Origin: Salinadaptatus halalkaliphilus
Lineage (GTDB): Archaea; Halobacteriota; Halobacteria; Halobacteriales; Natrialbaceae
NCBI RefSeq assembly: GCF_006543045.1
Contig: NZ_RBZW01000076.1
Coordinates: forward strand, 180,820-244,819
Direction of reading: 5' to 3'
Length of the DNA stretch: 64,000 bases
The notes under the pieces are model-generated. The model searched no databases and was not told the DNA's origin. It was given only the letters and a program-made list of their open reading frames with translations. Made by a program: the position numbers and the translations under genes. Positions 1,836 through 60,562 of the stretch are shown piece by piece; position 1 is the stretch's first letter; every line of letters begins with the position of its first letter.

Positions 1836-2297
1836 ATGTACGAACGCATACTCATTCCGACGGACGGCAGCAACGTCGCACAGGCAGCGGTCGACAGCGC
1901 AATCGATCTCGCCGAGAGGTACGACGCAGAGATCCACGCGTTGTTCGTCGCCGATACCGACGCAGTGGCGTACGGTCTCGGTACCGAACAGGTCGATCGG
2001 ATCCGACAAGGGAACTTCGAGGGGATGACCGAGTTACGCGAGGACGCCACGGAAGCAACCAGTTACGTGACCGAACAGGCCGAGAAAGCAGGCGTCGCGG
2101 CGGTCGAGCACCACGCGGGGGGACAACCCCACCGGATGATTGCCAACTACGCAGACGATCACGAAATCGACCTCATCGTGATCGGTAGCCACGGTCGCTC
2201 GGGCGTCCGGCGTGCGTTGCTCGGCAGCGTCACCGAACGCGTCCTTCGATCCACGCACACCCCGGTGCTGGTCGTCGACTACCAGGAAGACGACTGA
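1836..2297 (+). CDS. Universal stress protein family (UspA-like)
   Basis: 153 residues forming one Usp domain. It starts MYERILIPTDGS and ends with GSHGRSGVRRALLGSVTERV, the G-x2-G-x9-G(S/T) ATP-binding signature, so it is expected to bind ATP. It starts 4 bases after the symporter stop and is probably co-transcribed; Usp genes often follow transporters in haloarchaea and may tune their activity (inference). Its TGA stop is also the first three bases of a copy of the dispersed palindromic element. Confidence 0.93.
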   Translation: MYERILIPTDGSNVAQAAVDSAIDLAERYDAEIHALFVADTDAVAYGLGTEQVDRIRQGNFEGMTELREDATEATSYVTEQAEKAGVAAVEHHAGGQPHRMIANYADDHEIDLIVIGSHGRSGVRRALLGSVTERVLRSTHTPVLVVDYQEDD

Positions 2298-2379
2298 TAC
2301 GGTCGCGTGGAACGACGTCCCGGTGGCCCCGCAGGGCGGTCGCGGGCACACCGGCATCGACCCACAGCAGACCGTCTGA
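2295..2379. repeat. Dispersed palindromic element, copy a (degenerate)
   Basis: 85 bp running from TGATACGG to CCGTCTGA. The ends match full copies elsewhere but the arms have diverged, and the inner CCGGTG...CACCGG pairing is weak. The left TGA is the usp stop codon. Confidence 0.6.
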
Positions 2380-2468
2380 ACGGACGAACGCGCAAGACTG
2401 ACGTACGACCGTTTCTTTCCACAGACTATGATCGAACTCGTACGACACTCGCGGTGTGAAACGCCACG

Positions 2469-2687
2469 ATGAGTCTCACTGACCGCCTTCGCGAGCACGT
2501 TCGTGACAACCGTGGGGGAATGCTGTACGACCTGATGTTCGCCGTCGTCTGGGTCGGCCTGGTTAGCTTTCTGTTCGACGTCGTCTTTACCGACGCACCC
2601 CGGTGGGCGTTCTACATGTTCATGCTCGCCGGCATTCCCGCCTACTTCGGCTTTTTCATCTCGCTCGAGATCGCGAAAAACCAGTGA
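2469..2687 (+). CDS. Small two-helix membrane protein, function unknown
   Basis: 72 residues: a charged N-terminus (MSLTDRLREHVRDNRGG), then two hydrophobic stretches at roughly residues 22-41 and 47-66, and a short basic end. The composition fits a real haloarchaeal membrane protein. I do not recognise a characterised family. It sits alone between two copies of the palindromic repeat, and its TGA stop is the start of copy b. Confidence 0.7.
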   Translation: MSLTDRLREHVRDNRGGMLYDLMFAVVWVGLVSFLFDVVFTDAPRWAFYMFMLAGIPAYFGFFISLEIAKNQ

Positions 2688-2770
2688 TACGGTTTCCTGT
2701 GAGTCATTTCCGGCGCAACCGCGACCCGAGCAGCGGTTGCGTCGGTACATCGTTACAGTAATCCGTATGA
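2685..2770. repeat. Dispersed palindromic element, copy b (full)
   Basis: 86 bp from TGATACGG to CCGTATGA. The inner stem is CCGGCGCAACCGC with its partner GCGGTTGCGTCGG (one G-T pair) around a 10-base loop. It lies in the opposite orientation to copies e, f and g: the GTCATTTCCGG-type arm is on the left. Direct TGA triplets flank the TACGG/CCGTA ends. Confidence 0.9.
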
Positions 2771-2799
2771 CTCGTCGAGAAGGCGCCGGCCAGATCCGA

Positions 2800-3027
2800 T
2801 TAGGCGGCGTCTTTGCTCGCAATCGCTCGCTGTCGCAGCCACACACAGAGGAGACTGGCGAGGGCGAAGATCACCGGCGTCGCTAGATCACTCGCCGAAC
2901 CCGACACAGCCTGCGAAACGGTCATGCCAGCCAGCAGCGCGAACAGAAACGCGAGCAGTCCCGTTATCGGGACCGCGAACCCGTCCGGAAATGCCGACGC
3001 ACGCCCGCCGTTCGACTCGTTTCCCAT
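2800..3027 (-). CDS. Small membrane protein, function unknown
   Basis: 75 residues if started at the ATG giving MGNESNGG. The upstream in-frame extension (MCRFQCHRCVGF...) is basic and unlike halophilic proteins, so I rejected it. Two hydrophobic helices span roughly residues 17-38 and 45-64, ending in a short charged tail. Its stop faces the repeat copy b. It is followed divergently by nothing obvious and preceded by the cyclophilin-like gene on the same strand. No family recognised. Confidence 0.6.
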   Translation of the reverse strand: MGNESNGGRASAFPDGFAVPITGLLAFLFALLAGMTVSQAVSGSASDLATPVIFALASLLCVWLRQRAIASKDAA

Positions 3028-3103
3028 ACGCCGCCCGTTCGTCCGTCGCCGACTAAAACCTACGCATCGGTGACACTGGAAACGACACACACTCGAGCGT
3101 CGG

Positions 3104-3475
3104 TCACGACCGATCGAGGCTCACGCGGGCCCCGCCCTCGAGACCGGAAAGCGCCGCGACATCCTCGAGGACGGCGACGACGGTGACGGGCGCAGCGGCT
3201 CGCGGTTCGTCGTCGACGCTGGCTGGCGTCGGTCCCCAGAACAGACAGCACTTCTCGCCGGCAGGCCAGTAGGCGATCGCGCCTTCGGGAACGACTTCGC
3301 GTGCGTTCTCGTTCGAGACGGATATCGACGCGTCGAAGTAGAGTTCGTCACCCCAGCGGATCGCCTCGCCCGAGAGAGGAAGCGCGTTGGCAAACGCCGC
3401 CCGGGTTTCGGGCGCGTCGTCGGTCCAGGTCGCCTCGAGGTCGTACTCGCCGACGGTGACTCGAAGGTCGGTCAT
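3104..3475 (-). CDS. Cyclophilin-like fold protein (COG2164/TM1367-like)
   Basis: 123 residues. The pattern is that of archaeal cyclophilin-like proteins: MTDLRVTVGEYDLEATW, then APETRAAFANALP, WGDELYF, VPEGAIAYWPAGEKCCLFWGPTPAS. The conserved YWPAG....LFWGPTP block is diagnostic. The fold resembles cyclophilin but the usual peptidyl-prolyl active site is not evident, so enzymatic activity is unproven. It is monocistronic or loosely linked to the membrane protein genes on either side. Confidence 0.85.
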   Translation of the reverse strand: MTDLRVTVGEYDLEATWTDDAPETRAAFANALPLSGEAIRWGDELYFDASISVSNENAREVVPEGAIAYWPAGEKCCLFWGPTPASVDDEPRAAAPVTVVAVLEDVAALSGLEGGARVSLDRS

Positions 3476-3529
3476 AGAACGAGCGACGGCAATGGACTAC
3501 TTTTCGCCACCGATTCACCGTCGGCAGAC

Positions 3530-4459
3530 TCATCGTTTGGTCTCGGTCTCGCGTTCCGGTTCGGGACCAGTAGGGATGCGTTCGACCGGTTTGCCACCAG
3601 TCCGTGCGCGTTCGATCGCCTCGAGGACTGCGTCGGGATCGTCGATCGTCCGTCGATCACAGCGAACGTCGAGCCATCCCGAACGCTCGAGGACGAGTTC
3701 GTCGTCGGTCAGCCGAACCGACTCGATCGCGTCCCACGGGACGACTTTCTGCGAGAGGGATTTCTCGAAGCGGAGACCGTGCTCGTGAACCGAGATCGTC
3801 GGCGGGTTCCACCGGTTCGTCGGATCGAAGTTCGCGTGGCGATCGGTCCAGACCGAGTACAGCAACGCGCCACAGTAGGCCGCGAAAAAGAGTCCGTAGA
3901 GCGAACCGGTTGCCAGTACCGAGGCGACGCTGGTCAGGAGACCGATCCCAAGAAACACGGTGCTGACGCTCCGGTGGGTAAGGATCCCACTTCGGTGCCA
4001 GTCCCACTGCGCGATCGGATCGTCGGGCGTCCGCGCGGCGGCGACGCGGTTTCGAGCCATCCGTGCGCCGCCGACCGCAAGCGGGGTCGTAAGCACGAAC
4101 AGCAATCCGATGGCGAACCCGAGTCGCCACTCGAGGGTTACGAGACCGACGAGGTGGGCGAACCAGACCGAGCCGAGCGCGACCACCGGGAGGAACCAGA
4201 CGAGTCGGCGACGGCGACTCCGACCGAGACGAACCGTCAGTCCGGACGTTCGGTTTACGAAGACGATACCGAGGACGGTCACGGCGGTGACGACGGTCGG
4301 AAACGTCGACAGGATGGTCGCGTTGTCCGCCCCGGCGACGACGCTCCCGAGCGTGACGACGCCGGCGACGATCACGCCGACGTAGAACGCGAGCGCCGCC
4401 GTAAAGCCGAGACTAGAGCCGTCGAAATCGGCCAACTCCGGGACCTGCTGGGTGGCCAT
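3530..4459 (-). CDS. Multi-helix membrane protein with C-terminal PH-like region
   Basis: 309 residues. About six hydrophobic segments fill residues 15-195 in three pairs. A soluble C-terminal part follows, with ISVHEHGLRFEKS...VPWDAIESVRLTDDELVL, the spacing seen in bacterial-type PH (bPH) domains. A polar, charged tail ends the protein. No catalytic motif is visible. It could be a membrane-stress or lipid-sensing protein, but that is speculation. It starts with the ATG giving MATQQVPEL, about 100 bases from the start-proximal end of the neighbouring flavoenzyme gene's stop. Confidence 0.75.
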   Translation of the reverse strand: MATQQVPELADFDGSSLGFTAALAFYVGVIVAGVVTLGSVVAGADNATILSTFPTVVTAVTVLGIVFVNRTSGLTVRLGRSRRRRLVWFLPVVALGSVWFAHLVGLVTLEWRLGFAIGLLFVLTTPLAVGGARMARNRVAAARTPDDPIAQWDWHRSGILTHRSVSTVFLGIGLLTSVASVLATGSLYGLFFAAYCGALLYSVWTDRHANFDPTNRWNPPTISVHEHGLRFEKSLSQKVVPWDAIESVRLTDDELVLERSGWLDVRCDRRTIDDPDAVLEAIERARTGGKPVERIPTGPEPERETETKR

Positions 4460-4559
4460 ATGAATCGGTCCACGCCGTCGATGATAATGCTACCGAACTG
4501 ACGACTCGAGGGCCGCGGCGAGATTCCTGGGACCGACCCTCGCCGTTGTAACCACCCTG

Positions 4560-6182: not shown

Positions 6183-6341
6183 TGACGGAGGTCAGAGCCC
6201 GACAGTTGTAAACGCAGCCCCAAACAGTGATGTGCGGACTCCCCACACTGGTACTGCAGACTCGAGTCCGGCGGTGTGGGAGTCCCTGTCTCGTCGACTC
6301 CCCTCCGAAACCGTTTTCAACTGCTCACGCGCACACTCGGT

Positions 6342-9288: not shown

Positions 9289-9301
9289 CGGGGCGGTCCT
9301 C

Positions 9302-9982: not shown

Positions 9983-10047
9983 TCGGGAACCCATAGACGG
10001 TTGTTGGCGATCTGTTTTTGCCTGGAGCTACTCGTCTCGAGTCGGGT

Positions 10048-11292
10048 CTATGCCCACGGATCGTCGGAGTCGTCGGAGTCGTCGGAGTCGTCGGAGTCGT
10101 CGGAGTCGTCGGAGTCGTTGGACTCGGACATCGCGCTCGAGTCGCCATTCGAATCAGTATCATCGTGCCGGCCGTCGTCGACCGATCGCCCGCCGGTTGT
10201 CGATTCATCGTCCCAGCCCGACGACGCACCCCAACTGGGCGAGTCGTCCCAGGAATCCGTCTCGGAGTCGGTCGGCTCACTCGAGTCGCCCCACCCAGTC
10301 GAGTTCTGAGTGGTACCTGTGGTCCCGCGGTGACTCCCCGTTGTCCCGGCCACAGATCGAACCGCACCGCGTTGGTCGGGGATGAGATCCAGCGTCTCGT
10401 CGGTGTCGCCCAGCAACAAGAGTGCGTAGTACCGGACGTAGCTCCGGACGGGCGCCTCGAGCAAGGACAGCGCGTACGAGTAGGCGAGACCGCCGAGGAT
10501 GGCGAGTGCACCGACGACGTAGATGAAGGCAGGATCCCCTTCGTTCACCAGGGCGAGGACGAACAGACTCACGAAGAGTCCGATGACCATCGCGAAAATG
10601 CCGATGAACGCGAAGACGATCCAGAGGCCGGCACCGATTACCCAGCCGACGGCGAGGAAGGCGAGCGTCGCGGTCCAGTTCGATCGAAGCGCCGGCGCGA
10701 CGCGTCGCCAGCCGTCGATCGGCCCGCGGTTCTCGAGGAGCATGACCGGCACGACGAAGGCCGTCGTCAGGGTATAGACGATCCACAACCCGACGTAGCC
10801 GACGAACCCGACGCCGAGCATCGTCAGGATCTGGCCGGCAGTCACGTCGTCGACGCCGTCGACGTTCCCGCCGAGGACGAACACGGCAGCCACGCTCGCG
10901 AGGACGGCGACGAAAGCCAGCCAGAGCCCCGCCCGAAACAGAAGCAACCAGAGGGCCTCTCGGAGGTTCTGACCGGCGTCCGATCGGACGGATACTGTCT
11001 CCGAACGGAGCGATTCGACGAAGACGAACTCGAAGACGGCAGCGAGGTACCGAAAGCCGACGTAGAGGGAGAGGCCGGCCACGACGAGCGCCGCCTCGAG
11101 GCCGAGTCCAGTGAGTGATTCGAACTGGGCTGCGATCGGTTCGGTATCGACGCCGGTAAACTGGTTCGAAAACCCGAGACCGCCGATAACGAGGACGACA
11201 GCCGCGAGTTTGAGATAGTCGACGAATCCGAGTACACCGAGATAGCGCTTCGTGAGGTGGAGGGCGTCACCGAGGTCGTCAGCGGCGTACAT
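10048..11292 (-). CDS. Multi-helix membrane protein with acidic Ser/Asp repeat tail
   Basis: 414 residues. About six hydrophobic helices lie in residues 20-290 (segments around VVLVIGGLGFSNQF, VAVLASVAAVFVLGG, VGYVGLWIVYTLTTAFVVPVMLLENRG, VIGAGLWIVFAFIGIFAMVIGLFVSLFVLAL). The LLENRGPIDGWRRVAPALRSNW stretch resembles haloarchaeal DUF4013/DUF7847-type and glycerophosphodiester-phosphodiesterase membrane domains. The C-terminal ~110 residues are disordered, polar and acidic, finishing in a run of Asp-Asp-Ser units and DDPWA. No enzymatic motif is seen. Confidence 0.75.
   Translation of the reverse strand: MYAADDLGDALHLTKRYLGVLGFVDYLKLAAVVLVIGGLGFSNQFTGVDTEPIAAQFESLTGLGLEAALVVAGLSLYVGFRYLAAVFEFVFVESLRSETVSVRSDAGQNLREALWLLLFRAGLWLAFVAVLASVAAVFVLGGNVDGVDDVTAGQILTMLGVGFVGYVGLWIVYTLTTAFVVPVMLLENRGPIDGWRRVAPALRSNWTATLAFLAVGWVIGAGLWIVFAFIGIFAMVIGLFVSLFVLALVNEGDPAFIYVVGALAILGGLAYSYALSLLEAPVRSYVRYYALLLLGDTDETLDLIPDQRGAVRSVAGTTGSHRGTTGTTQNSTGWGDSSEPTDSETDSWDDSPSWGASSGWDDESTTGGRSVDDGRHDDTDSNGDSSAMSESNDSDDSDDSDDSDDSDDSDDPWA
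10061..10117. repeat. 9-bp tandem repeat encoding Asp-Asp-Ser units
   Basis: Just over six near-identical units of GTCGTCGGA on the plus strand, read as SDD on the minus strand inside the end of the membrane protein gene. It keeps frame because the unit is a multiple of three. Copy number is likely to vary between strains by slippage. Confidence 0.9.
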
Positions 11293-13822: not shown

Positions 13823-14642
13823 TCAGGCGGGATGGCGCGAGTCGGCGTTCGGGTCGTCGATGAAGCGCAGGACTAGCTCGATGAAGCGGTCCGGTGCGGT
13901 GAGCATCGCCTCGTGTGCGTGACCCTCGAACGTCACGACGTGACTGTTCGGGAGCGCCTCGTCGACGATTGCTGTCGCGTCTTGCAGGTTTGGCGGGCTT
14001 TCGCTACCGGTCAACAGCAGCGTCGGCGTCGTCAGGCTCGCGAACCGGTCGGGGTCAAACTCGTAGTCCACTCCGGCTTCGAGGTGACGGAGCCAGACGT
14101 GGGCCGCATCCACGACGTCGTTCCAGTAGGGAGCCGTCCGCTGTGCGTCGATCTCTTCCGGCGTGGATCGAGCTATCTCCTGCAAGAACTCGACGATCGC
14201 CTCCTCGTTTTTCCCCTCTTCAGCAGCGCTCGCATGTCGTCGAATACCGCCTGGGCTTCCTCACCGGTCTCTGCGGGCATCTGGATCCGCGGTTCGTACA
14301 GAACGAGTGCCTCGAGATTGTCGGTCCGACGCGCCGCCTCGATCGCCAGTAAAGCCCCGCCGGAGTGGCCGAGCAGCGCCGCTGGCTCGCTGGTAGCGTC
14401 GACGACCGCAGCGACATCTTCGAACTCCCGAGCGAGCTCGTAAGCCGGGCCGTCGCCGCTTTGGCCGACCCCCCGATAGTCCATTGCGTGGACTGTTCGG
14501 TGTTTTGCGAAGCTTCGACGAACGTCGCCGAGTTCCCAGAACCGATGGTCGCTGACGGCGCCGTGGACGAGCACGAGCGGCAGTCCCCGTCCCGTTCGTT
14601 CGACGGCGATTTCGGCCCCGTCCGGGGACGTGACTGTTTCAT
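13823..14642 (-). pseudogene. Alpha/beta hydrolase, broken by two frameshifts
   Basis: Three reading frames together give one alpha/beta hydrolase: TVTSPDGAEIAVERTGRG and LVLVHGAVSDHRFWELG (oxyanion HG), then the nucleophile elbow LLGHSGGALLA, then in another frame EAIVEFLQEIARSTPEEI, TPTLLLTGSESPP and the catalytic His in VVTFEGHAHEAML. The first break is just after the ATG at 14642 (AAA where MKTV needs AAAA). The second is near 14208 (five A where six restore KRGKNEEAIVEF). Both are single-base losses in A runs on the coding strand. The gene abuts repeat copy c, whose right end supplies the ATG. Confidence 0.85.
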
Positions 14643-14723
14643 ACGGACCGTTGTAGTTCTTTACCGGTGATCACCGACCCCGTCCGGGTGATCACCGGTA
14701 AAACGCTACAACAATCCGTATCA
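14639..14723. repeat. Dispersed palindromic element, copy c (variant core)
   Basis: 85 bp with the family ends (TCATACGG...CCGTATCA, that is TACGG/CCGTA between direct TCA triplets). The core differs: 16-base perfect arms TTTACCGGTGATCACC and its reverse complement around a 10-base loop, and each arm contains the small palindrome GGTGATCACC. The ATG of the broken hydrolase lies inside the left end. Confidence 0.85.
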
Positions 14724-15032
14724 ATCGCTCTCCGTCCGTCCGGTGGTCTCTCGTTTGGCCTCCTCTCCGCTGGTGGTTTGTCTGCCATGGTCGACTCATC
14801 CACCGCCACCTATGCTGCGAGATAACATAGCCCTACCCTGTGGGTGACACCGGCCTATCGACGAGACGGATCTGGAGTGAGAAGAAGTATTATCAGAATA
14901 CAGACATTTCCTCGATCAAAGCGAGCCACAACACCGAAGATCGGGCCTCGGAATCGCCGAGTGGCGACGATACGCCCTATGAGAACCGTCGACAACCGCA
15001 ATTTGAAGACCGTCGCCGATGTAAAGCGGTGC
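14724..15032. other. Gene-free stretch upstream of hydrolase
   Basis: About 310 bases. It holds the promoter region of the hydrolase that starts at 15033. A short AT-richer piece near 14880-14910 (GAAGAAGTATTATCAGAAT) could carry a TATA-like element. An in-frame extension of the hydrolase reading frame back to 14844 is basic and probably not translated. Confidence 0.45.
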
Positions 15033-15983
15033 ATGAAAGCCCGAACAGTCCTCGGCGCAGCCGCCGGTGTGGTCGGCGCGGCCGTTCTCGGCAACCGCCT
15101 CCTCGAACGACGCGCTGGCGACCTCGAGAATCCCCTTCCCGGTATCGAGCGGACCTATCGCTGGCGCGGTATCGAGACGAGATATACGGTCGCGGGCGAG
15201 CCCGCGGCACCCGATATGTTACTCGTCCACGGCGTCCATGCGGGTGCGAGCAGTCACGAGTTCCAGTCGATCGTCGACCGACTGGCCGAGGAGTACCACG
15301 TCGTCGCGGTCGACCTCCCCGGGTTCGGCCGTTCGGAACGGCCGCCGCTGGTTTACTCGGCCGAATTGTATGCCGAGTTCCTCCGGGACTTCGCGAGGGA
15401 CGTGACCGAAGACCCCATCGTCGTCGCGTCCTCGCTGTCGGGCGCGTTCGCCGTCGACGCTGGCGCCGAAAGCGAGTTCGAACACCTCGTCTTGGTCTGT
15501 CCGACCGACGAGACGATGGCCGAGCGACCCTGGCTTCGGACCCTCCTCCGGACGCCCATCGTCGGCACGACGGCGTACAACCTGCTCTCGAGTCGACCCT
15601 CGATACGATACTTCTACGATCGGGACGGCTTCTACGACAGTTCGAACGTCGACGACGACATGGTCGCCCACGCCTGGGCGAGCGCCCACCAGCCCGGCGC
15701 TCGCTACGCCGGCGCTTCCTTCGCCGCCGGCACGGTCGATCCCGACCTCGACCTCCAGACCGAACTGGCCGCCCTCGAGACCGACGCGACGCTCGTCTGG
15801 GGCCGGGACGCCGAACTCGTCCCGCTGCGAGACGGTCGCGACCTCGCCGAAGCCGCCGACCTCGAACTGGTCGTCATCGACTACGCGACCCAACTTCCCC
15901 ACGTCGAACACCCCGACGAGTTCGTCGAGTATCTGATCGCAGAACTGCTACACGCGGATGTCGACGCCGACACCGACGACTGA
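15033..15983 (+). CDS. Alpha/beta fold hydrolase
   Basis: 316 residues from the ATG giving MKARTVLGAAAG, which opens with a hydrophobic segment (residues about 5-22) that could be a membrane anchor. The fold markers are DMLLVHGVHAGASSHEF, VVAVDLPGFGRSERPP and VVASSLSGAFAVDAG. The nucleophile elbow reads ASSLS rather than GxSxG; a similar Ser-based elbow occurs in other haloarchaeal hydrolases. The acid is likely in LVWGRDAELVP and the His in LPHVEHPDEF. The substrate is unknown. Its TGA stop is the first triplet of repeat copy d. Confidence 0.85.
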   Translation: MKARTVLGAAAGVVGAAVLGNRLLERRAGDLENPLPGIERTYRWRGIETRYTVAGEPAAPDMLLVHGVHAGASSHEFQSIVDRLAEEYHVVAVDLPGFGRSERPPLVYSAELYAEFLRDFARDVTEDPIVVASSLSGAFAVDAGAESEFEHLVLVCPTDETMAERPWLRTLLRTPIVGTTAYNLLSSRPSIRYFYDRDGFYDSSNVDDDMVAHAWASAHQPGARYAGASFAAGTVDPDLDLQTELAALETDATLVWGRDAELVPLRDGRDLAEAADLELVVIDYATQLPHVEHPDEFVEYLIAELLHADVDADTDD

Positions 15984-16013
15984 TACGGTTTACTGGAAGT
16001 CATTTCCGGCGCG
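15981..16013. repeat. Dispersed palindromic element, copy d (left half only)
   Basis: TGATACGGTTTACTG, then GTCATTTCCGGCGCG, after which the match ends. It corresponds to one arm of the full 86-bp element; the other arm is missing. The opening TGA is the stop codon of the hydrolase gene. Confidence 0.7.
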
Positions 16014-16424: not shown

Positions 16425-17590
16425 GGCTCGACCTCCGCTAAAACGTGGACGGTCGCACTGGCGACGGTGCCACCCGCGTTGTGCGCGAGGGCGGTCGTGG
16501 CGTCCGCGACGAACTCGCTGTTGGGGTGGTCGCCCGACAGCAACGTCGCAGCCTCGGCGATCTGGGACGCCCCTGTCGCGCCCACGGGGTGGCCCTTGGC
16601 CTTCAGTCCGCCCGAGAGGTTGACCGGCGTCTCGCCGTCGGCGGTCGTCCGCCCGTCTCGAGCGGCCGAGATGCCCTCGCCGACGCCCGCGATGTCGAGC
16701 GCTTCGATCGCGAGCACTTCGGCGATCGTAAAGCAGTCGTGGACCTCCGCGAAGTCGACGGCGCTCGCGTCGATACCGGCGTCGTCGTAGGCTTCGGCGC
16801 CGGCCTCGCGCGCGGCCGGCGAGCGAGCAAGGTACTCGCGGTCGTGCAGGGCCATCCGGTCGCCGCCCTGCCCGGTCCCCGTGATCGCGACCGGGGCCTC
16901 GAGGTCGTTGTCCTCGGCGTAGTCCTCGCTCGTCAGGACGAGCGCGGCCGCCCCGTCGGAGATCGGACAGGAGTCGTAGAGCCCGAGTGGTGAGGAGACC
17001 TGTGGCGCCTCGAGGACGTCGCTGACCTCGATCGCACTCTGGTACTGGGCTTTGTCGTTGGTCAGCGCGTTCTCGTGGTTCTTGACGGCGATGTGCGCCA
17101 GATCCTCGTGTTCGCCGCCGTACTCCTCGAAGTACGCCTGTGCCATCAGGGCGTAGGCTCCGGGGAAGGTCATCCCGGCCCGAACCTCCCAGAGATCGTC
17201 GGCGGCGATGGCGAGCGCCTCGGTCGCGCCCGCGGTCCCGAGGTTGGTCATGCGCTCGGCGCCGCCCACGAGGACGACATCGGCCTCGCCGTTGCGGATG
17301 CGAACGACGGCCTCCCGGATGGCTGCCCCGCTCGAGGCGCAGGCCGACTCGTAGCGCGTTGCAGGCGCCTGTACGCCCGCAGCTTCGGCCATCAACGGTC
17401 CCTGGTGGCCCTGGTGTTCTGCCAGTTCGCCCATGAAGTTGCCGTAGAAGACGGCCTCGACATCGTCTCGAGGAACGTCGCTGTCCTCGAAGGCCGTTTG
17501 GCTCGCCCGTGCGAAGAGGTCTCGGCTCGTCCGCTCGGGCGTACTGCCAAACGGCGTCACACCCGTTCCGGCGACGCGTACGTCACTCAT
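16421..17590 (-). CDS. Thiolase family protein (acetyl-CoA acetyltransferase, SCP2-type)
   Basis: 389 residues from the ATG giving MSDVRVAGTGVTPFG; an ATG two codons upstream is possible. The active-site Cys is in RYESACASSGAAIREA near residue 85. The His motif is GHPVGATGASQIAEAA, and a second catalytic region is VDFAEVHDCFTIAEV. It condenses or cleaves acyl-CoA thioesters. The coupled DUF35 gene downstream suggests a thiolase-DUF35 complex like the one known from archaeal mevalonate synthesis, but no HMG-CoA synthase is adjacent, so the pathway is open. Confidence 0.93.
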   Translation of the reverse strand: MSDVRVAGTGVTPFGSTPERTSRDLFARASQTAFEDSDVPRDDVEAVFYGNFMGELAEHQGHQGPLMAEAAGVQAPATRYESACASSGAAIREAVVRIRNGEADVVLVGGAERMTNLGTAGATEALAIAADDLWEVRAGMTFPGAYALMAQAYFEEYGGEHEDLAHIAVKNHENALTNDKAQYQSAIEVSDVLEAPQVSSPLGLYDSCPISDGAAALVLTSEDYAEDNDLEAPVAITGTGQGGDRMALHDREYLARSPAAREAGAEAYDDAGIDASAVDFAEVHDCFTIAEVLAIEALDIAGVGEGISAARDGRTTADGETPVNLSGGLKAKGHPVGATGASQIAEAATLLSGDHPNSEFVADATTALAHNAGGTVASATVHVLAEVEP

Positions 17591-17701
17591 GCACACCCCT
17601 ATCGGATCGAGGCGTTAATACTCAGCGGTTACGGTCGCCGTTTCGGACTCCCTAGAGGTTCGATCCGCGCGTTTAACACGTCTGATGGATCACGTGTACG
17701 T

Positions 17702-18769
17702 ATGAGTTCACCGACCGTCGATATCGATGCGCTCGCCACGCTCACCGAGACGAGTGGCGTCCCCGGCTACGAGGATCGGATCCGCGACCTCGTCGTCGAC
17801 CGGTTCGCAGACAGCGTCGACCGCGTCCGCACCGACGCGATGGGCAACGTCGTCGGCACGCTCGAGGGCGACACCGACTACTCGGTCGCCGTCGCGGCCC
17901 ACATGGACGAGATCGGCTTCATGGTTCGCCACGTCGCCGGCAGCGAGGACGGCTTCGGGTTCGTCGAACTCGACGCGCTCGGCGGCTGGGACGCTCGCGT
18001 CCTCAAGGCCCAGCGCGTGACGATCCACACCGACGACGGCGACGTACCGGGCGTCATCGGCTCGCCGCCGCCCCACACCCAGGACGACGACGAGCGCGAG
18101 AAGACGCCCGACGTCGAGGATGTCGCCGTCGACATCGGCCTCCCCTACGAGGAGGCGACCGACCGAATCTCGCCGGGCGATCTCGTCACGATGGAGCAGA
18201 CGACCGAGCGCGTCGGCGAGACGGTCACCGGCAAAGCACTGGACGACCGCGTCTGTCTGTTCGCGATGCTCGAGGCCGCGGATCGGCTCACCGAGCCCGA
18301 CGCCACGATCCACTTCTGTGCGACCGTCCAGGAGGAAGTCGGCCTGCGGGGCGCACAGGCCCTGGGCGTCGACGTCGATCCCGACCTGGCGATCGCACTG
18401 GACGTCACCGTCGCCAACGACGTCCCCGGCTTCGACGACGGCGCACACGTCACCGATCTCGGCGCAGGCACCGCGATCAAGCTCAAGGACTCGAGCGTCA
18501 TCACCAACCCGAAAGTCAACAGGCGACTGCAGTCGGTCGCCGACGCGGCAGAGATCGCGTACCAACTCGAGATCCTCCCCGCCGGCGGCACCGACACCGG
18601 GGGGTTCCAAAACTCGGCTGGCGCGAAACCCGTCGGCGCAATTTCGATTCCGACGCGGTATCTCCACACGCCGACCGAAACCGCCCACGTCGACGACATC
18701 GCGGCGACGATTGACCTGCTGGAAGCGTTCCTCGAGAGCGAGGACGGCGAGCACGAGTACACGCTCTGA
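17702..18769 (+). CDS. M42 family metallopeptidase (aminopeptidase/endoglucanase-like)
   Basis: 355 residues from the ATG at 17702. Metal ligands are visible: H in VAAHMDEIGFMV, D in KALDDRVCLFAMLEA, E-E in TVQEEVGLRGAQ, D in AIALDVTVANDVPG and the late H in PTRYLHTPTETAH. The GGTDTGGFQ loop is typical of the family. M42 enzymes form dodecameric cytoplasmic aminopeptidases that trim peptides. It carries an acidic insert after PPPHTQDDDE. The TGA stop is the first triplet of repeat copy e. Confidence 0.94.
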   Translation: MSSPTVDIDALATLTETSGVPGYEDRIRDLVVDRFADSVDRVRTDAMGNVVGTLEGDTDYSVAVAAHMDEIGFMVRHVAGSEDGFGFVELDALGGWDARVLKAQRVTIHTDDGDVPGVIGSPPPHTQDDDEREKTPDVEDVAVDIGLPYEEATDRISPGDLVTMEQTTERVGETVTGKALDDRVCLFAMLEAADRLTEPDATIHFCATVQEEVGLRGAQALGVDVDPDLAIALDVTVANDVPGFDDGAHVTDLGAGTAIKLKDSSVITNPKVNRRLQSVADAAEIAYQLEILPAGGTDTGGFQNSAGAKPVGAISIPTRYLHTPTETAHVDDIAATIDLLEAFLESEDGEHEYTL

Positions 18770-18852
18770 TACGGATTGCTGTAACGATTTACCGGCGCAA
18801 CCGCCGTCCGGGTCGCGGTTGCGCCGGAAATGACGTACAGTAAACCGTATGA
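18767..18852. repeat. Dispersed palindromic element, copy e (full)
   Basis: 86 bp, TGA-TACGG...CCGTA-TGA. The central stem is perfect over 13 pairs: CCGGCGCAACCGC and GCGGTTGCGCCGG around a 10-base loop. The left TGA is the M42 peptidase stop codon. Confidence 0.93.
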
Positions 18853-43426: not shown

Positions 43427-44293
43427 ATGGCTCGCAGAAGTCTGCTGTTTGCTCCCGGCGATCAACCCGAACTGCTCCGAAAAACCCCTGCAACTGGCGC
43501 CGACACGGTCATCTTTGATCTCGAGGACGCCGTCACGCCCGACCAAAAGGACGCGGCCCGAGCGACCGTCCGCGCGGTACTCGCGGATCCGTCGTTCGAT
43601 CCCGACTGCGAGGTCTGCGTTCGCGTCAATCCGACGGGATCGGTGATGGACGCCGACCTCGAGGGGCTGTTCGGAACCGACGACGCCGACGCGGTCCGGC
43701 CCGATAGTATCCTGTTGCCGAAAGTCGACGCACCGGCCGACATCCGAACACTCGCGGCCGAACTCGAGACCTACGATCGCTCGCTTCCGATTCTCGCGTT
43801 GCTCGAGAGTGCGGCGGGCATTCTGGCGGCAGCCGACATCGCAGCGGCGTCGGCGACCGACGCGTTGGTTTTCGGTGCCGAGGACTTTTCGGCGGATATC
43901 GGCGCGACGCGAACCGACGAGGGGACGGAGGTGCTTCACGCTCGCGAGCAGGTCGTTCTCGCGGCCAGCGCACACGAGATCGATGCCGTCGATACGGTCG
44001 TCACCGAGTTCGACGACCCCGAACGCGTCCGCGAGGAGGCCGACTTCGCCGTACAACTGGGGTACGACGGCAAAATCGCCATTCATCCGAGTCAGGTCGA
44101 CCCGATCAACAGCGCCTTCTCACCGTCCGCGGAGACGGTCGAGTGGGCCCAAGCAATCCTCGAGGCCAAGCGCGACGCCGACGCCGACGACCGCGGCGTC
44201 TTCGAGGTCGACGGCGAGATGATCGATCCGCCGGTTATTGCACAGGCCAAACAGATCCTCGAGCGCGCCAGTGCGGCCGATCGGAACACGTGA
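43427..44293 (+). CDS. HpcH/HpaI aldolase/citrate lyase beta-like protein (malyl-CoA lyase/thioesterase family)
   Basis: 288 residues in one TIM barrel. Motifs: MARRSLLFAPGDQPELLRKTPATGADTVIFDLEDAV, VCVRVNPTGS, ILLPKVDAPADI, PILALLESAAGIL, VFGAEDFSADIGATRTDEGTEV and DGKIAIHPSQVDPIN. The Arg, Glu and Asp of the Mg/CoA site are all present. It could be a (methyl)malyl-CoA lyase or the related malyl-CoA thioesterase; the length is closer to the shorter CitE-type enzymes. The MaoC hydratase lies divergently upstream and glutamate dehydrogenase downstream. Confidence 0.9.
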   Translation: MARRSLLFAPGDQPELLRKTPATGADTVIFDLEDAVTPDQKDAARATVRAVLADPSFDPDCEVCVRVNPTGSVMDADLEGLFGTDDADAVRPDSILLPKVDAPADIRTLAAELETYDRSLPILALLESAAGILAAADIAAASATDALVFGAEDFSADIGATRTDEGTEVLHAREQVVLAASAHEIDAVDTVVTEFDDPERVREEADFAVQLGYDGKIAIHPSQVDPINSAFSPSAETVEWAQAILEAKRDADADDRGVFEVDGEMIDPPVIAQAKQILERASAADRNT

Positions 44294-44308: not shown

Positions 44309-44394
44309 TGATACGGATTACTGTACCGATGTACCGGCCCAGCCGCCGCCCGGGTCGCGGCTGGGCCGGAACTGACGTACAGTAAACCGTATGA
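44309..44394. repeat. Dispersed palindromic element, copy f (full)
   Basis: 86 bp, TGA-TACGG...CCGTA-TGA. The 13-pair perfect stem is CCGGCCCAGCCGC/GCGGCTGGGCCGG. Relative to copy e, both arms have changed at two positions so that pairing is kept. It lies 16 bases after a stop codon rather than on it. Confidence 0.93.
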
Positions 44395-44531: not shown

Positions 44532-45788
44532 ATGACAGAGAGTGCCAATCCGTTCGAGAGTCTGCAGTCTCAGATCGACGAGGCGGCGGCGTATCTTGAT
44601 ATCGACGACGATGTCATCGAGCGACTCAAACATCCAGAACGCGTTCTCGAAACGAATCTGTCGGTCGAGCTCGACGATGGATCTCTCGAGCGGTTCAAAG
44701 CCTTCCGATCCCAGTTCAACGGTGATCGGGGGCCGTACAAGGGGGGCATTCGCTACCATCCACAAGTCAGTCGTGACGAAGTAAAGGCGCTGTCGGGATG
44801 GATGACCTACAAAACGGCGATCGTCGACATCCCCTTCGGCGGCGGCAAAGGTGGAATCGTCGTCGATCCGACGGCGTACTCCGAGAGCGAACTCGAGCGA
44901 CTCACTCGCGCGTTCGCCGTCGAACTGCGACCGCTCGTCGGCGAGGACCGAGACATTCCCGCACCCGACGTGAACACGGGTCAGCGGGAGATGAACTGGA
45001 TCAAAGACACCTACGAAACGCTGGAAAATACGACTGAACCGGGCGTCATCACTGGCAAGAACCTCGCCAGCGGCGGCAGCGAGGGTCGCGTCGAGGCGAC
45101 CGGCCGATCGACCGTTATCGCCGCCCGCGAAGCCTTCGACTACCTCGATACGGACCTCGAGGGCGCGACCGTCGCCGTTCAGGGCTATGGCAACGCCGGC
45201 TGGATCGCCGCGAAGTTGATCGACGAGATGGGCGCGACCGTCGTCGCCGCCAGCGACTCGAGTGGCGGCATCTACAACCCCGACGGCTTCGATCCGGTCG
45301 CCGCAAAGGATCACAAAAACGAGACCGGCAGCATCGTCGGCTACGAGGAGGGCCAGGAAGAAATCACCAACGAGGACGTCCTGACGATGGACGTCGATCT
45401 CCTGATCCCCGCTGCGCTCGAGAACGCGATCGACGGCGATCTCGCCGAAGATGTCTCTGCCGACGTCATCTCCGAGGCCGCAAACGGTCCGCTGACGCCG
45501 GAAGCTGATCGGGTTCTGGAGGGCGAGGACGTTTTCGTCATCCCGGACATCCTCGCTAACGCCGGCGGTGTGACCGTAAGCTACTTCGAGTGGGTCCAGA
45601 ACCGCCAGCGGTTCTACTGGTCCGAACAGAAGGTCAACGATGAACTCGAAGGTCTCATCGTCGACGCCTTCGACGCGCTCGTCGACACGATCGAGGAACA
45701 CGACCTCGACAACCCACGGACCGCAGCCTACGTCGTTGCGATGCAACGCGTCGCTGACGCGTTCGAAGAAGGCGGTCGCTTCCCCTGA
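44532..45788 (+). CDS. gdh: Glutamate dehydrogenase (Glu/Leu/Phe/Val dehydrogenase family)
   Basis: 418 residues. Substrate motifs: [50 protein letters not shown], with the catalytic Lys in the GGGKGG region, and [17 protein letters not shown]. The NAD(P) fold has [19 protein letters not shown]. It converts glutamate to 2-oxoglutarate and ammonia or the reverse. Haloarchaea carry several paralogues, so the coenzyme is not called. The TGA stop is the first triplet of repeat copy g. Confidence 0.96.
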
Positions 45789-45871
45789 TACGGCTCGGTG
45801 TACCGATGTACCGGCGCGACCGCCACTCGGATCGCAGTCGCGCTGGAAATGACGTCCGGTGAACTGTATGC
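45786..45871. repeat. Dispersed palindromic element, copy g (full, slightly diverged)
   Basis: 86 bp, TGA-TACGG...CTGTA-TGC. The stem CCGGCGCGACCGC/GCAGTCGCGCTGG has one mismatch and one G-T pair. The left TGA is the glutamate dehydrogenase stop. Confidence 0.85.
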
Positions 45872-46557: not shown

Positions 46558-46561
46558 CCCC

Positions 46562-46646
46562 TCAGACGGTGTTGGACGGCAGTTCCGGCGCGACCGCATG
46601 ACGGGTCGCTCTCGCGCCAGTACATCGGTCCAGCAAGCCGACCACA
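46562..46646. repeat. Dispersed palindromic element, copy h (degenerate)
   Basis: About 85 bp starting TCAGACGGTG. It keeps TTCCGGCGCGACCGC, a 10-base loop and a weak partner CGCTCTCGCGCCAGTACATCGG, and the ends are eroded. It lies between convergent genes. Confidence 0.5.
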
Positions 46647-51125: not shown

Positions 51126-51134
51126 GGGTGGAGG

Positions 51135-52463: not shown

Positions 52464-52465
52464 CG

Positions 52466-54004: not shown

Positions 54005-54006
54005 GG

Positions 54007-55140: not shown

Positions 55141-55151
55141 TCTACGTCACC

Positions 55152-55165
55152 TATGGTTGACTATA
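55152..55165 (-). promoter_or_regulatory. Possible operator of the nad operon
   Basis: TATAGTCAACCATA on the minus strand, an imperfect inverted repeat (TATAGT/ACCATA, five of six pairs), 12 bases before the nadA ATG and about 20 bases after a TATA-like stretch. It overlaps the expected transcription start. A NAD-responsive repressor could bind here (inference). Confidence 0.3.
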
Positions 55166-55339
55166 CCTCATAGATCGCTATTGAATAACTTTTTCCTTCG
55201 AAGGTCAATTCCGGTTGCATACCACCGAGTGGTGTAATCATCGAAGAGAGTTACGTACGGATCGTGGTTTCGCCGGCAACGGTCGACAATTCGTATCAGT
55301 CGTCGAGTCCTCGGAGGCGAGGCCCGACAAAGGATGTTA

Positions 55340-58300: not shown

Positions 58301-58960
58301 TCGGATTACCTGGCGCTTGTCTCGCCCGAGCACAGCCGCTCGATCGATACCGAAGTACCGTTCCGTCGTCTCGTTGATCCACGCGACGTCGAAGTGCTCG
58401 TCGAGTACGAAAACACCGATCTCGGCGTCCTCGAGAACTGTTGTGGCTGCCTCGAACGCACTCGAGGCAGTTACGTCCGTTTCGGCTGGAGGCCGAGCCC
58501 CGTCCGCGTCGGCACCTACCGTCTCGATGTCGCCGTTCGTCGTCGATGAGGCCCGCTCGAGGGGCGTCAGAACCCCGACCGCCCCGTGGCACTGGTCGTC
58601 GATCCGGACCGGCGTTACCCCGAACCGGCAGTGTCGCCTCGTATTTGCTGCAGTGTACAGCCCGACGTCGATCGACGGCTCTCCAACGGCGTCTTGCTGC
58701 TCCGTGTCGGTAACCGACTCCTCGAGGTGTGCCACCGTCGCATCCGACAGGAGCAACGAGGCGTGTGCGCCCACCAACTCATTGTGGCCGTAACCGGTAA
58801 TCTCGAGGAGCGTCTCGTCGGCCGCACAGATCCGAAGCGACCGATCGAACTGCACGACGCCACCGTCGATCGCTTCGACAAGGGACTGACACCATTCGTC
58901 CGGTGCCGGATCCCCGTCGGGAGTCCAGAACGACGATGGTGACGCGTTCCGTTCGCTCAT
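55340..58960 (-). CDS. Large multi-PAS/GAF sensor histidine kinase
   Basis: 1206 residues from the ATG giving MSERNASPSSFWTPD. There is no membrane segment, so it is a cytoplasmic sensor. Approximate order: PAS (20-140), PAS (175-300), GAF (310-455), then PAS domains around 465-590, 600-725, 725-850 and 850-965. The HisKA phosphoacceptor is FAYAASHDLQEPLRMVTSYL near 985 and the ATPase is near 1080-1206. N box QVFQNLLANAIEYSGDG, G1 VTDEGIGID and G2 GTGIGLALCRRIVQRHGG are intact. A ~40-residue Ser-rich insert separates N and G1 boxes. No response regulator is adjacent. The signal may be redox, light or small ligands. Confidence 0.93.
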   Translation of the reverse strand: MSERNASPSSFWTPDGDPAPDEWCQSLVEAIDGGVVQFDRSLRICAADETLLEITGYGHNELVGAHASLLLSDATVAHLEESVTDTEQQDAVGEPSIDVGLYTAANTRRHCRFGVTPVRIDDQCHGAVGVLTPLERASSTTNGDIETVGADADGARPPAETDVTASSAFEAATTVLEDAEIGVFVLDEHFDVAWINETTERYFGIDRAAVLGRDKRQVIRETIRDCVADPDRFEETVTATYDDNTYVERFECHVTPYDDREERRLEHRSKPIEHGPFAGGRVELYYDITEQHDRAVQLRQLNDSLREWVTKPSREDVASTASRQLRSILGLEINGIYLYDEATDSLRPAGWSEPAAELFDEVPIFAAGEGVAWRVFESGEPEIYDDVRTDPDVYNPETPIRSEICLPIGDHGILLAGSQRPRAFDDGDRSLATVVASGLEVIFDQIRQKRVRERERAQTEQLLQTAPVAIAVEDAAGDTVVSNRRTRELLGVSDGLPLGKAGTIDGWNVYDRSGKRLAPEDAPVARARTTGTPVTDRELVLEGPTGDRIWVSVNAAPVHAADGSVARVISVAEDVTERKRHERQLERRKTELETELSEILGRISDAFYALDEEWRFTHVNDRAESLLGYSAEELVGEVVWDIFHHGRESDLYDRFQTAMDSQEAVSVERYSETLDIWMEVQAYPSESGLSVYFRDISDRKAREHQLLQYERIIETVDDGIYVLDADGQFTAVNEAYTELTGYDRSELIGAHASLVATDATVERARQLAADDNSVSTIETELQTSAGEWVPVEATITAFSRTDTGPERVGVVRDITERKDRQRRLEASEQRYRTLAEHFPNGMVALYDEDLRYTAAGGQLLEDLGIDRTTLIGQRIRERYPDDLVDDIESELRATLEGEERAFDVQYRGREFRAHTLPVDTPDGDHTGMLVVQDVTERVRYERKLEASNERLEQFAYAASHDLQEPLRMVTSYLGLIEQRYEDELDQDGQEFIDFAVDGAERMRTMIDGLLEYSRVETRGEPFEPVDLNDVLADVRKDLEVQIEESGADVTVESLPCVRGDASQLRQVFQNLLANAIEYSGDGPPTVTVSASRWADESTAASTDRSSSAVEGSVGPQAGVQPDTVDGSWSGETWIVSVTDEGIGIDPDDTDRIFGLFERLHGRDDGDGTGIGLALCRRIVQRHGGDIWVDSEPGVGSTFSVAIPAPP

Positions 58961-59011
58961 TGCCTCTGTAACAGGACTCGGAGGCATAAGTCCCACGCAC
59001 CCAGCGAGTGG

Positions 59012-59827
59012 TTACGATCGGTCCGGAGTATCGGAACGGTCCCCCGCGCTCGGCTGGGGGTCGACGTGTGGCGCAGGGAGTAACTGCTCACGCGGTCGGT
59101 CGTCGAGCCACTCGAGCAAGGCGACCAGTTGTTCGGTGGCGGCGTCGAAGAGTCGCTTGCCAATCTCGGGCGTCGCGTCGGTCTGATCACCGAAAACGCC
59201 GTTTTCGCTGTTTTCGATCGTGTCGTAGAACGTCGTCGCACCGTGGACGCGACCGGCGCCGTCGTCGAAGACGGTCCCGCCATCGCGGGCGTCCTCGAGG
59301 CGGTCCTCGCGGACGAGTTCCTCGGCGATGTGCATGATCATCGCGGTCTCTTTGGGGCCGCCGTGAGGACCAGGCGTCTCGAAGACTTCCTCGATGAGTT
59401 CGGGGATCGACTCGTCCCACATCCACTCGATGGCGTAGGCGGTCCCGTCGTCGTGCAGTCGGCGACCGACCTCACGAAGGTGGGCGACGTTACCGCCGTG
59501 GGCATTGACGTAGACGATCCGATCGATCCCGTGGGCGGTTAGATTCCGCGAGAAGCTCTCGACGTAGTCGCGGAATATCGGCGGCTCGACCCACATCGTG
59601 CCGTGGAACTGCCGGTGATGGGAGCTGACGCCGATGCGAACCGGCGAGGTACACAGAAAGCCCGACCGTTCGGCCGCCGCTCGAGCGAGCGCCTCGGCGA
59701 TCATGTAGTCGGTGCCCTCGGGGAGGTGTGGGCCGTGCTGTTCGGTCGATCCGAGCGGCACGATGGCGACCGACTCGGTACCGACGTAGTCGGTAAGTTC
59801 CTGCCACGTTCGGTGGGGAAGGTACAT
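59012..59827 (-). CDS. Creatininase family protein
   Basis: 271 residues. Metal and active-site residues: VPLGSTEQHGPHLPEGTDYMIAEALA (E, H, D), SSHHRQFHGTMWVEP, IVYVNAHGGNVAHL (H) and HGGPKETAMIMHIAEELV (E). These amidohydrolases include creatininase, the FAPy hydrolase of archaeal riboflavin/F420 synthesis (ArfB) and MftE. No pathway partner is adjacent, so the substrate is open. The final ~20 residues are a polar tail. Confidence 0.92.
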   Translation of the reverse strand: MYLPHRTWQELTDYVGTESVAIVPLGSTEQHGPHLPEGTDYMIAEALARAAAERSGFLCTSPVRIGVSSHHRQFHGTMWVEPPIFRDYVESFSRNLTAHGIDRIVYVNAHGGNVAHLREVGRRLHDDGTAYAIEWMWDESIPELIEEVFETPGPHGGPKETAMIMHIAEELVREDRLEDARDGGTVFDDGAGRVHGATTFYDTIENSENGVFGDQTDATPEIGKRLFDAATEQLVALLEWLDDRPREQLLPAPHVDPQPSAGDRSDTPDRS

Positions 59828-59961
59828 AGCCGTATCTGGGAGTGGAACTCCAAAACATTGTATGGCCGACCGCCGTTTCGATCGCCTGCGTCTCGAGTCG
59901 AACGGACCGCGAGCCGAAAAACATAGTAAACCTTAATAGCTAACCGCCGACGAGTTATTAT

Positions 59962-60390
59962 ATGGCAGTCGTCAGCGTCTCGATGCCGGACGAACTTCTC
60001 GACCGGCTCGATCAGTTCGCCGAGGAGCACGGGTACACCGGTCGCAGCGAAGTCGTCAGGGAAGCTTCGAGAAACCTGCTCGGCGAGTTCGAGGACACCC
60101 GACTCGAGGACCGAGAACTAATGGGTATCGTCACCGTCTTGTTCGACTACGAGACCACGAGCGTCGAAGAGCGCATGATGCACCTGCGCCACGAACACGA
60201 AGACCTCGTGGCCTCGAACTTCCACAGCCACGTCGGCGATCACTACTGCATGGAGCTGTTCGTTCTCGAGGGCGAACTCGAGGATATCTCGACGTTCGTC
60301 GGCAAGATCCGTGCGACCAAAGACGCCCTGACGGTCGATTACTCCGTGATTCCCGTCGACGAGTTCGATCCGATCTCGCAGGGACGATAA
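59962..60390 (+). CDS. nikR: Nickel-responsive regulator NikR-like (CopG family)
   Basis: 142 residues. The ribbon-helix-helix part is [39 protein letters not shown]. The ACT-like metal domain has [33 protein letters not shown]; the HSH...C set matches the square-planar nickel site of NikR. It should repress nickel uptake when metal is bound. No nickel transporter or urease/hydrogenase gene is in the window. A TTATTATATGG stretch overlaps the start, and TTAATAGC near 59932 may be the TATA element. Confidence 0.9.
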
Positions 60391-60418
60391 CCCCAAAGAC
60401 AGCACTCGAGGCTACTAC

Positions 60419-60562
60419 TGATACGGATTCCTGTACCGATGTCCCGGCGGTGAGTCGAACGGTGTGCAACGAGCCTCGGTCGAGGGGCGACGCGAGTCGA
60501 CCGGCCCAGCCGCCGCCCGAGTCGCGGCTGGACCGGAAACGGCGTCCAACAGTCCCTACGAA
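60419..60562. repeat. Dispersed palindromic element, copy i, with internal insertion
   Basis: It begins TGATACGGATTCCTGTACCGATG and ends near CCCTACGAA. The central stem CCGGCCCAGCCGC/GCGGCTGGACCGG is kept, but about 58 extra bases lie between the left end and the left stem arm (about 60446-60503). Confidence 0.75.

Follow-up and report, generated by a model that had tools for sequence, protein, structure and literature searches.

The window, i.e. the whole 64,000-nucleotide stretch analysed, contained four intact, one near-intact and four decayed copies of a short imperfect palindrome (TACGG...CCGTA, 79-80 bp) with direct TGA triplets outside its ends:

2295..2379 (+), decayed element with right end CCGTC TGA, its left TGA serving as the stop of a universal stress protein gene (1836-2297)
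2685..2770 (-), intact element of 80 bp (2688-2767), TGA on each side, interior reversed relative to the 18767 and 44309 copies
14639..14723 (-), intact 79-bp element (14642-14720) belonging to a second subfamily, intergenic, TCA/TCA on the plus strand and thus TGA/TGA on the minus strand
15981..16012 (-), truncated element consisting of the left arm alone (~32 bp), on the stop codon of an alpha/beta hydrolase gene (14844-15983)
18767..18852 (+), intact element of 80 bp (18770-18849), TGA/TGA, the left TGA being the stop of an M42 peptidase gene (17075-18769)
44309..44394 (+), intact element of 80 bp (44312-44391), TGA/TGA, 15 bp 3' of the stop of an aldolase-family gene (43427-44293)
45786..45871 (+), near-intact element whose right end has decayed to CTGTA TGC, sitting on the stop of a glutamate dehydrogenase gene (44532-45788)
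46562..46644 (-), decayed element beginning TCA GACGG..., 43.8 bits with the covariance model
60419..60561 (+), long variant of 137 bp (60422-60558), exceeding the usual element by 57 bp, intergenic, with decayed right end CCCTA CGA

A sequence-only reading of this DNA had placed nine copies at these positions, and re-checking confirmed its coordinates. Its description of full copies as 85-86 bp with TACGG...CCGTA inside TGA held for the four intact copies. It had rightly seen TCA flanks at 14639 and two arm types that give the element an orientation, the 2685 copy being reversed relative to those at 18767, 44309 and 45786. The covariance model scored the 2295-2379 copy at 37.7 bits. In five of the nine copies (2295, 2685, 15981, 18767 and 45786), the left TGA was the in-frame stop of the upstream ORF; at 2685 this was a 72-aa ORF (2469-2687) with no Pfam match. 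Interiors nearly identical to that of the 14639 copy were present elsewhere in the genome, and the start of the insert in the 60419 copy (CCGGCGGTGAG) was common to 10 genome places among the matches listed, this copy included.

Across the genome, all 130 intact copies were 79-81 bp long, i.e. short and without a transposase gene, as a MITE requires. Among them, 114 were flanked by TGA/TGA and four by TAA/TAA, in a set partly chosen by TGA. The triplet was duplicated in 76 of 83 distinct copies from named genomes (78 of 85 with duplicates), and in 69 of the 74 copies of this set in which the search pattern fixed only one end; together with the single triplets at empty sites, these proportions correspond to the target-site duplication of a MITE. 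The joined flanks of 118 copies gave a palindromic target, GAC-TGA-GTC, and a similar tendency was seen in 27 copies of other genomes. The interior was oriented one way relative to TGA in 68 copies and the other way in 44 (114 copies, 2 unclassified). As interiors lay either way round, four copies carried TAA/TAA and empty sites held one triplet, TGA is to be regarded as part of the target. The triplet evidently is duplicated at a palindromic target irrespective of orientation, which bears out the 3-bp target duplication that had been suggested for the window copies.

Empty sites with a single TGA, proposed earlier as a check, were found between genomes. Two copies of the relative G074 were absent from its congeners G028 and G062, which had one TGA (85% identity over 239 bp and 90% over 148 bp, both ungapped). 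For two insertions of the genome that holds the window, G028 had the empty counterpart, one carrying a lone TGA and the other a lone TCA (83% over 172 bp and 78% over 241 bp, gapped), and one copy in G211, from another family, was matched in the window's genome by an empty site with a single TGA (89% over 240 bp). Paralogous empty sites also held one triplet. For the 45786 copy, 2 of 30 loci compared, its own included, were filled and 28 were empty; an arm was present at the glutamate dehydrogenase stop in G044 too. Six empty sites held one- or two-base triplet variants (TGT, TCG, TCG, CGG, CCA and CCA), which divergence would explain without this being proof. Tandem copies with a single triplet between them occurred at C4:27379/27462 and C21:11842/11925, and many copies were identical or nearly so within the genome, pointing to recent spread. 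The filled and empty orthologous sites are those expected of a moving MITE and show, at the level of aligned sequences, that the element is mobile.

The earlier reading had recommended looking for a transposase gene with TACGG ends; none turned up in the sequence examined. Among transposase families, the search covered PF01609 and PF13359. No TNA-flanked TACGG...CCGTA element occurred at the 9 PF01609 loci of the window's genome, nor any TNA-flanked TACGG-ended element in 30 loci examined of 134 PF01609 matches in eight high-copy relatives; at two PF01609 loci (L332 and L335), a TACGG...CCGTA pair was flanked by matching triplets, but these were CCG and GAC and not TNA. PF13359 had 0 matches in all 12 high-copy genomes. 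In ~3 Mb of partly overlapping sequence, all similar-ended, TNA-flanked TACGG...CCGTA long pairs listed used at least one short-copy end, and the candidate pairs L102 and L111, composed of such ends, were dropped as autonomous elements. Orphan arms retrieved with filtered patterns (26 in the window's genome; 46 in six genomes, 30 loci examined) led to no autonomous partner. Repeats inside large syntenic stretches gave one match, without TACGG...CCGTA ends, host genes between inverted copies were negative as mobilisers, and phage records and viral contigs did not match the element. Overall, no ends shared with an autonomous transposon were found among the PF01609 loci, PF13359 and the pair scans, which covered part of the IS families and sequence.

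Among 34 copies with identities below 80%, pairing at variable positions of the stem was seen in 524 of 646 cells compared to 395 when shuffled (reached by 0 of 2000 shuffles), and positions 16-18 paired in 16 of 102 compared to 35 (1 of 5000 shuffles as low), in shuffles that do not account for kinship among copies. The commonest internal loop had CGAT in one arm and GTCA in the opposite one. The element therefore has the terminal inverted repeats of a MITE, TACGG/CCGTA being set by the search patterns and the stems beyond pairing far above shuffled values, and between diverged copies it shows a hairpin with covarying stems and an internal loop kept open.

Hairpins are read by dedicated enzymes in other systems, REPs by RAYT and attC sites by the integron integrase. 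It is conceivable, though unlikely, that here too a folded single strand or cruciform is what moves, recognised through its structure by a dedicated enzyme and not derived by deletion from an insertion sequence. The stem covariation and fixed internal loop of the 34 diverged copies would suit such an element, as would the missing autonomous element and the near-constant length (78-81 bp in the places listed from a class-wide search whose pattern permitted 78-88 bp). The duplicated TNA, symmetric target and free orientation, however, are signatures of double-strand staggered-cut insertion; moreover, palindrome-correcting mutation could match the arms without selection, the relatedness of copies was ignored in the shuffles, and 14 of the 34 copies paired at least one of positions 16-18. 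A class-wide version, with a superfamily of mobile hairpins in Halobacteria read mainly from their shape (a stem fixed at 80 bp, interrupted by an asymmetric internal loop), served by a dedicated and perhaps chromosomal enzyme without any autonomous transposon, and forming an archaeal counterpart of REP/RAYT with a 3-bp duplication, is doubtful.

Of 118 genome copies, 43 (about a third) lay exactly on stop codons and 75 lay elsewhere, in classes that are rough, above all 'inside' (21 of 118), as genes were called with a simple GC-periodicity caller; in Natrialba magadii, a RefSeq CDS independently ends exactly on the element's first TGA. Weights learnt on the 75 non-stop insertions predicted a stop share of 37% (42% without 10 resident copies), compared to 43 of 97 non-disruptive insertions observed (44%; p = 0.14 and 0.61, respectively), and unweighted TGA triplets would give 12%. 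The copies on stop codons thus follow from target preference, many genes ending in ...GAC TGA, and dedicated stop-codon targeting was rejected since the non-stop weights predict the stop share.

The five window copies and 43 genome copies beginning exactly at a stop codon, the strong folding of the intact copies in the window (z -4.8 to -8.1, four copies) and the equal flanks of some copies across genomes (L361/L363, L362/L364/L367, L375/L376) would also fit an immobile 3'-end regulatory hairpin, a terminator or mRNA-stability element kept by selection behind stop codons. This is highly improbable, as it is contradicted by the empty sites, target-site duplications, tandem insertions and identical copies, by a G074 insertion at a point inside a called ORF of G028, and by the 75 copies away from stops, target preference alone accounting for the stop share. 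Furthermore, the element lacks any T-run, and the window had 0 Rfam matches above the gathering score, hence none to a 3'-UTR RNA family. A regulatory role could still have been gained after insertion.

The pattern TGATACGG N70-76 CCGTATGA had 96 matches in the 4.52-Mb genome compared to 0 for a reversed-pattern control, and TACGG N68-80 CCGTA had 228 compared to 17, i.e. ~210 copies above background. Of 292 Halobacteria genomes, 90 had exact TGA-flanked copies, with one control match in the whole set. Copies number up to about two hundred per genome, Natrarchaeobius chitinivorans and Natrialba swarupiae being among the high-copy species, and the element is spread across several families of the class. 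Repeated chance resemblance or an assembly artefact is refuted by these controls, even though the bare-end pattern was weak in the window alone (4 matches compared to 1.1 expected; as many were reached in 5 of 100 shuffles).

A variant end, GACGG instead of TACGG, was seen in 23 arms beside TGA and one beside TCA. It occurred in 21 of 169 copies; a suspected selection at stop codons was not borne out, the stop share being alike (9/21 and 53/148; p = 0.63). Plasmid-like contigs held 0 intact copies and one decayed copy in 213 kb; as these contigs were partly picked for having no listed match, the fair sample is the ~127 kb of transposase-bearing contigs (roughly 6 copies expected), and scarcity on plasmid-like contigs is suggestive only.

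Taken together, the anatomy and behaviour of the 79-80 bp element support the MITE reading first made from the window: it is probably a non-autonomous transposable element moved in trans and inserting at a palindromic target. The transposase acting in trans would most likely be a DDE enzyme with a 3-bp staggered cut, recognising both ends through TACGG and the paired subterminal stem. Insertion would take place at the centre of the short palindrome GAC-TNA-GTC, with duplication of TNA, nearly always TGA/TCA. Insertions within genes would mostly be lost, and those between genes, or on a TGA stop codon itself, would survive, the latter because the duplicated TGA keeps the protein intact. Genes ending in ...GAC TGA would be the best target, placing a third of surviving copies exactly on stops. 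Three observations count against the MITE reading: constraint on the stems and internal loop extends along the entire element, beyond the needs of an ordinary MITE; six empty sites have triplet variants; and no autonomous relative was found in the PF01609 loci, the PF13359 search or the pair scans. We regard the element as a real and mobile member of a new, unusually structured MITE superfamily and, as far as we know, as one of the smallest mobile elements.

A symmetric DNA target, together with the ...GAC TGA endings frequent among haloarchaeal genes, makes gene ends a safe landing place, where genes can bear the element on their stop codon without protein loss. Such copies fall in the presumed 3' UTR and should be marked in annotation. 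The missing enzyme and conserved internal loop raise a testable question, namely what moves an 80-bp hairpin without a visible parent.

Among known systems, Tourist/Harbinger-type and IS5-group elements (IS1031, ISL2) make 3-bp TNA duplications, which we take to be a mark of the IS1031/ISL2-like elements. The 80-bp element shares this TNA-type duplication but no common ends were found, the expected family PF13359 was present in 0 of 12 high-copy genomes, and the 39 PF01609 loci examined lacked TNA-flanked TACGG...CCGTA ends. REPs and REPINs, associated with RAYT, are dispersed imperfect palindromes whose stem has a mismatch bulge; their copies number in the hundreds and are mostly extragenic, and to our knowledge REPs make no target duplication. 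The element is likewise a dispersed imperfect palindrome with a bulged stem, mostly extragenic and in hundreds of copies, but differs in its 80-bp length, TACGG ends and duplicated TNA. According to the available part of PMC3733652, REPs measure 20-40 bp and are sorted by GTAG or CGTC tags.

The open-access PMC literature, including the accessible parts of PMC3119063, PMC10969869 and PMC3402447, gave no description of the element, ISfinder and most subscription papers lying outside this search. In Haloquadratum walsbyi, the available text of PMC3119063 describes five MITE families, some without a functional copy of the matching transposase. The element resembles these haloarchaeal MITEs in its shortness, terminal inverted repeats, target duplication and high copy number; in contrast, it is smaller (79-80 bp), is imperfectly palindromic from end to end apart from an internal loop, occurs in several families of the class, and matched no transposon found here, whereas the Haloquadratum MITEs are assigned to a known transposon through their ITRs (PMC3119063). 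The same text describes short mobile repeats in Haloquadratum, namely SMR-A (~110 bp) and SMR-B (one of 80 bp), which the element resembles in size, in inverted ends unrelated to known transposons and in the lack of a known mobiliser. While SMR-A makes no target duplications and prefers PATE/IS605 palindromes (PMC3119063), the 80-bp element duplicates TNA and prefers GACTNAGTC.

The repeat, an imperfect palindrome of 79-80 bp (TACGG...CCGTA) between direct TGA triplets, was present in the window (64% GC) at the positions given by the sequence-only reading, as follows:

2295, decayed, truncated or longer-type copy
2685, intact copy
14639, intact copy
15981, decayed, truncated or longer-type copy
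18767, intact copy
44309, intact copy
45786, nearly intact copy
46562, decayed, truncated or longer-type copy
60419, decayed, truncated or longer-type copy

Across the whole 4.52-Mb genome (G000), the pattern with both ends flanked by TGA was matched 96 times with N70-76; with N68-78 there were 162 matches (83 forward, 79 reverse), and the control gave none in either search. Bare ends (TACGG N68-80 CCGTA) were found 228 times against 17 control matches, which corresponds to about 210 genome copies with intact ends.

The flanking triplets of 130 distinct intact copies, a collection biased to TGA because one of its searches demanded it, were TGA/TGA in 114 (either direction), TAA/TAA in 4 and unequal in 12. 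In a set from named genomes, where the pattern fixed TGA and one arm at a single end only, the free-end triplet was identical in 69 of 74 pattern-matched copies, and equal triplets flanked 76 of the 83 distinct copies overall (78/85 before removal of duplicates). The interior is asymmetric, with two arm types, and faced either way relative to TGA (68 vs 44 of 114; 2 unclassified); the TGA is therefore not part of the element.

Empty sites holding a single triplet, named by the sequence-only reading as support for transposition, were recovered with joined flanks both in relatives and in G000. In Natrarchaeobius chitinivorans AArcht4T (G074), the TGA/TGA copy at 205308 (joined-stretch numbering) was empty in the congener G028, with one TGA and 85% identity over 239 bp without gaps, within ORFs of our simple caller; the copy at 280544 (left TGA, right CGA) was empty in the congener G062, with one TGA (90% over 148 bp) that by eye appears to end an upstream frame. 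G028 lacked two of the G000 copies: the L129 site there held a single TGA (83% over 172 bp, one gap), the L135 site a single TCA (78% over 241 bp, several gaps). Copy L370 comes from G211, which belongs to another family, and its site on G000 contig C12 was empty with one TGA (89% over 240 bp). For G000 copies within other dispersed repeats (L101; G000 75719), repeat copies in G074 or G000 carried one TCA or TGA. Six further pairs had one triplet differing by 1-2 bases from TGA/TCA (L352, TGT; L432 and L081, TCG; L006, CGG; L139 and L076, CCA, both matching one common other repeat). The 24 matches listed for 359 queried copies comprised these six pairs, L370, L257 (one of the two G074 sites) and, uncounted, L085, whose matched place was itself filled, and 15 copies whose match was a tandem or older neighbour of their own. 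At no counted empty site was the triplet present twice.

After joining, the 118 sites whose triplets were both TGA or both TAA gave the consensus G(59%) A(56%) C(62%) - TNA - G(62%) A/T(76%) C(62%) G(53%), a target forming a 9-bp interrupted palindrome, GACTNAGTC. Among 27 copies of other genomes, which include same-site copies of related species, a comparable but weaker tendency was seen (G at -3 in 24, C at -1 in 20, G at +1 in 13, C at +3 in 12). Symmetry of the target about a short duplication of fixed length is what a transposase dimer making staggered cuts would be expected to produce. A repeat, GCGAATTCGCGACCGACGTTTCACTGACTTCTGTCCGACAGTAT..., dispersed in both G000 and G074, was itself a target of the element (L035/G000 75719, L034, L110, L131), and two element copies had inserted into a further repeat, CCGGGRATYGAAACASGGTA...ATCC (L057, L047/L076, L139, a G000 stretch).

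Five of the nine window copies started exactly at the in-frame stop of the upstream gene, as did 43 of 118 genome copies (54 intergenic, 21 inside called genes). Target weights learnt from the 75 non-stop copies and applied to all TGA triplets in 184 kb of G000 predicted a stop-codon share of 37% of non-disruptive targets, or 42% without 10 resident copies; the observed share was 43/97 (44%; p = 0.14 and p = 0.61, respectively), while unweighted triplets predicted 12% (p = 2e-15). The element therefore need not seek stop codons: gene ends in GAC-TGA are good targets, and the stop is restored on insertion. On Natrialba magadii plasmid pNMAG01, a RefSeq CDS ends with the first TGA of the element. 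The glutamate dehydrogenase stop (window 45786) was filled in 2 of 30 loci (G000, G058) and empty in 28 (TGA 13, TAA 11, TAG 4); in Natronolimnohabitans sp. A-GB9 (G044), outside those loci, an arm also begins at this stop.

Among 173 distinct copies of 78-81 bp flanked by TGA/TAA-type triplets, 34 that were <80% identical were used to assess hairpin structure. At variable stem positions beyond TACGG/CCGTA, 524/646 cells were paired vs 395 with right arms shuffled among copies (reached in 0/2000). Positions 16-18 were paired in only 16/102 cells vs 35 shuffled (1/5000 shuffles as low) and entirely unpaired in 20/34 copies. Usually, therefore, an internal loop stays open, and its commonest form has CGAT on one arm and GTCA on the opposite one. 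Both comparisons are strong evidence rather than a formal test, shuffles ignoring relatedness and the sample being the loci collected here. The four intact window copies, folded as single-strand DNA, gave z of -4.8 to -8.1, and size was 78-81 bp among the class-wide matches listed, with 78-88 bp permitted. The match between the arms could persist through selection on shape or through mutational correction of palindromes.

About 12% of copies (21/169; e.g. L086, L091, L095, L098, L120) began TGA|GACGG instead of TGA|TACGG, and GACGG arms adjoined TGA 23 times and TCA once. GACGG directly followed the second triplet in 13/130 intact copies; new copies therefore land beside older ones. A long subtype, ~57 bp longer with an insert starting CCGGCGGTGAG, occurred at window 60419-60561, L304, L313 and other G000 copies, and at L313 a short copy appears to have inserted into it. 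Very short derivatives (L171, end of contig C11; L084 near 750) consisted of TGA-TACGGTTTACTGTAATCCGTA-TGA plus a 33-bp form, without the hairpin top. Window 10061-10126 held a 9-bp tandem repeat, TCGTCGGAG.

Among 121 family genomes, matches greatly exceeded the control in several, including G074 (241 vs 10), G044 (166 vs 14), G017 (144 vs 16), G012 (143 vs 20) and G064 (140 vs 16), and showed no excess in others. At least one exact TGA-flanked copy occurred in 90/292 Halobacteria genomes (window's own family, f3, f4, f7, f9), with 1 control match across all 292; the phage records and viral contigs searched gave no match. Identical flanks were shared across genomes (L362/L364/L367; L361/L363; L375/L376). 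Some of the insertions are therefore probably ancient, having been retained through speciation. Transposase-bearing G000 contigs (C17, C12, C5, C43, C74, C70, C3) held no intact copy in ~127 kb, with ~6 expected, and one decayed copy (C43); the element may largely be restricted to the main chromosome.

A transposase gene with TACGG ends, the partner suggested for the element, was not found in the sequence examined. TNA-flanked TACGG...CCGTA ends surrounded PF01609 transposases at 0 of 9 G000 loci and at 0 of the 30 loci examined from 134 matches in eight high-copy relatives, PF13359 had 0 matches in 12 high-copy genomes, and orphan arms or long TACGG pairs (~3 Mb, partly overlapping) yielded just decayed copies, lone arms and pairs using short copies. 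An autonomous element that is rare, a transposase of another family or a dedicated enzyme could each act as the mobiliser.

The proposed MITE identity agrees with the anatomy and behaviour of the element, its matching autonomous element being untraced, and interest lies in which enzyme moves it. No published description was found in the open-access library searched (ISfinder not covered). The element differs from REPs in size, tag and duplication, and whereas the SMR-A short mobile repeats of Haloquadratum make no target duplication, the element described here does.
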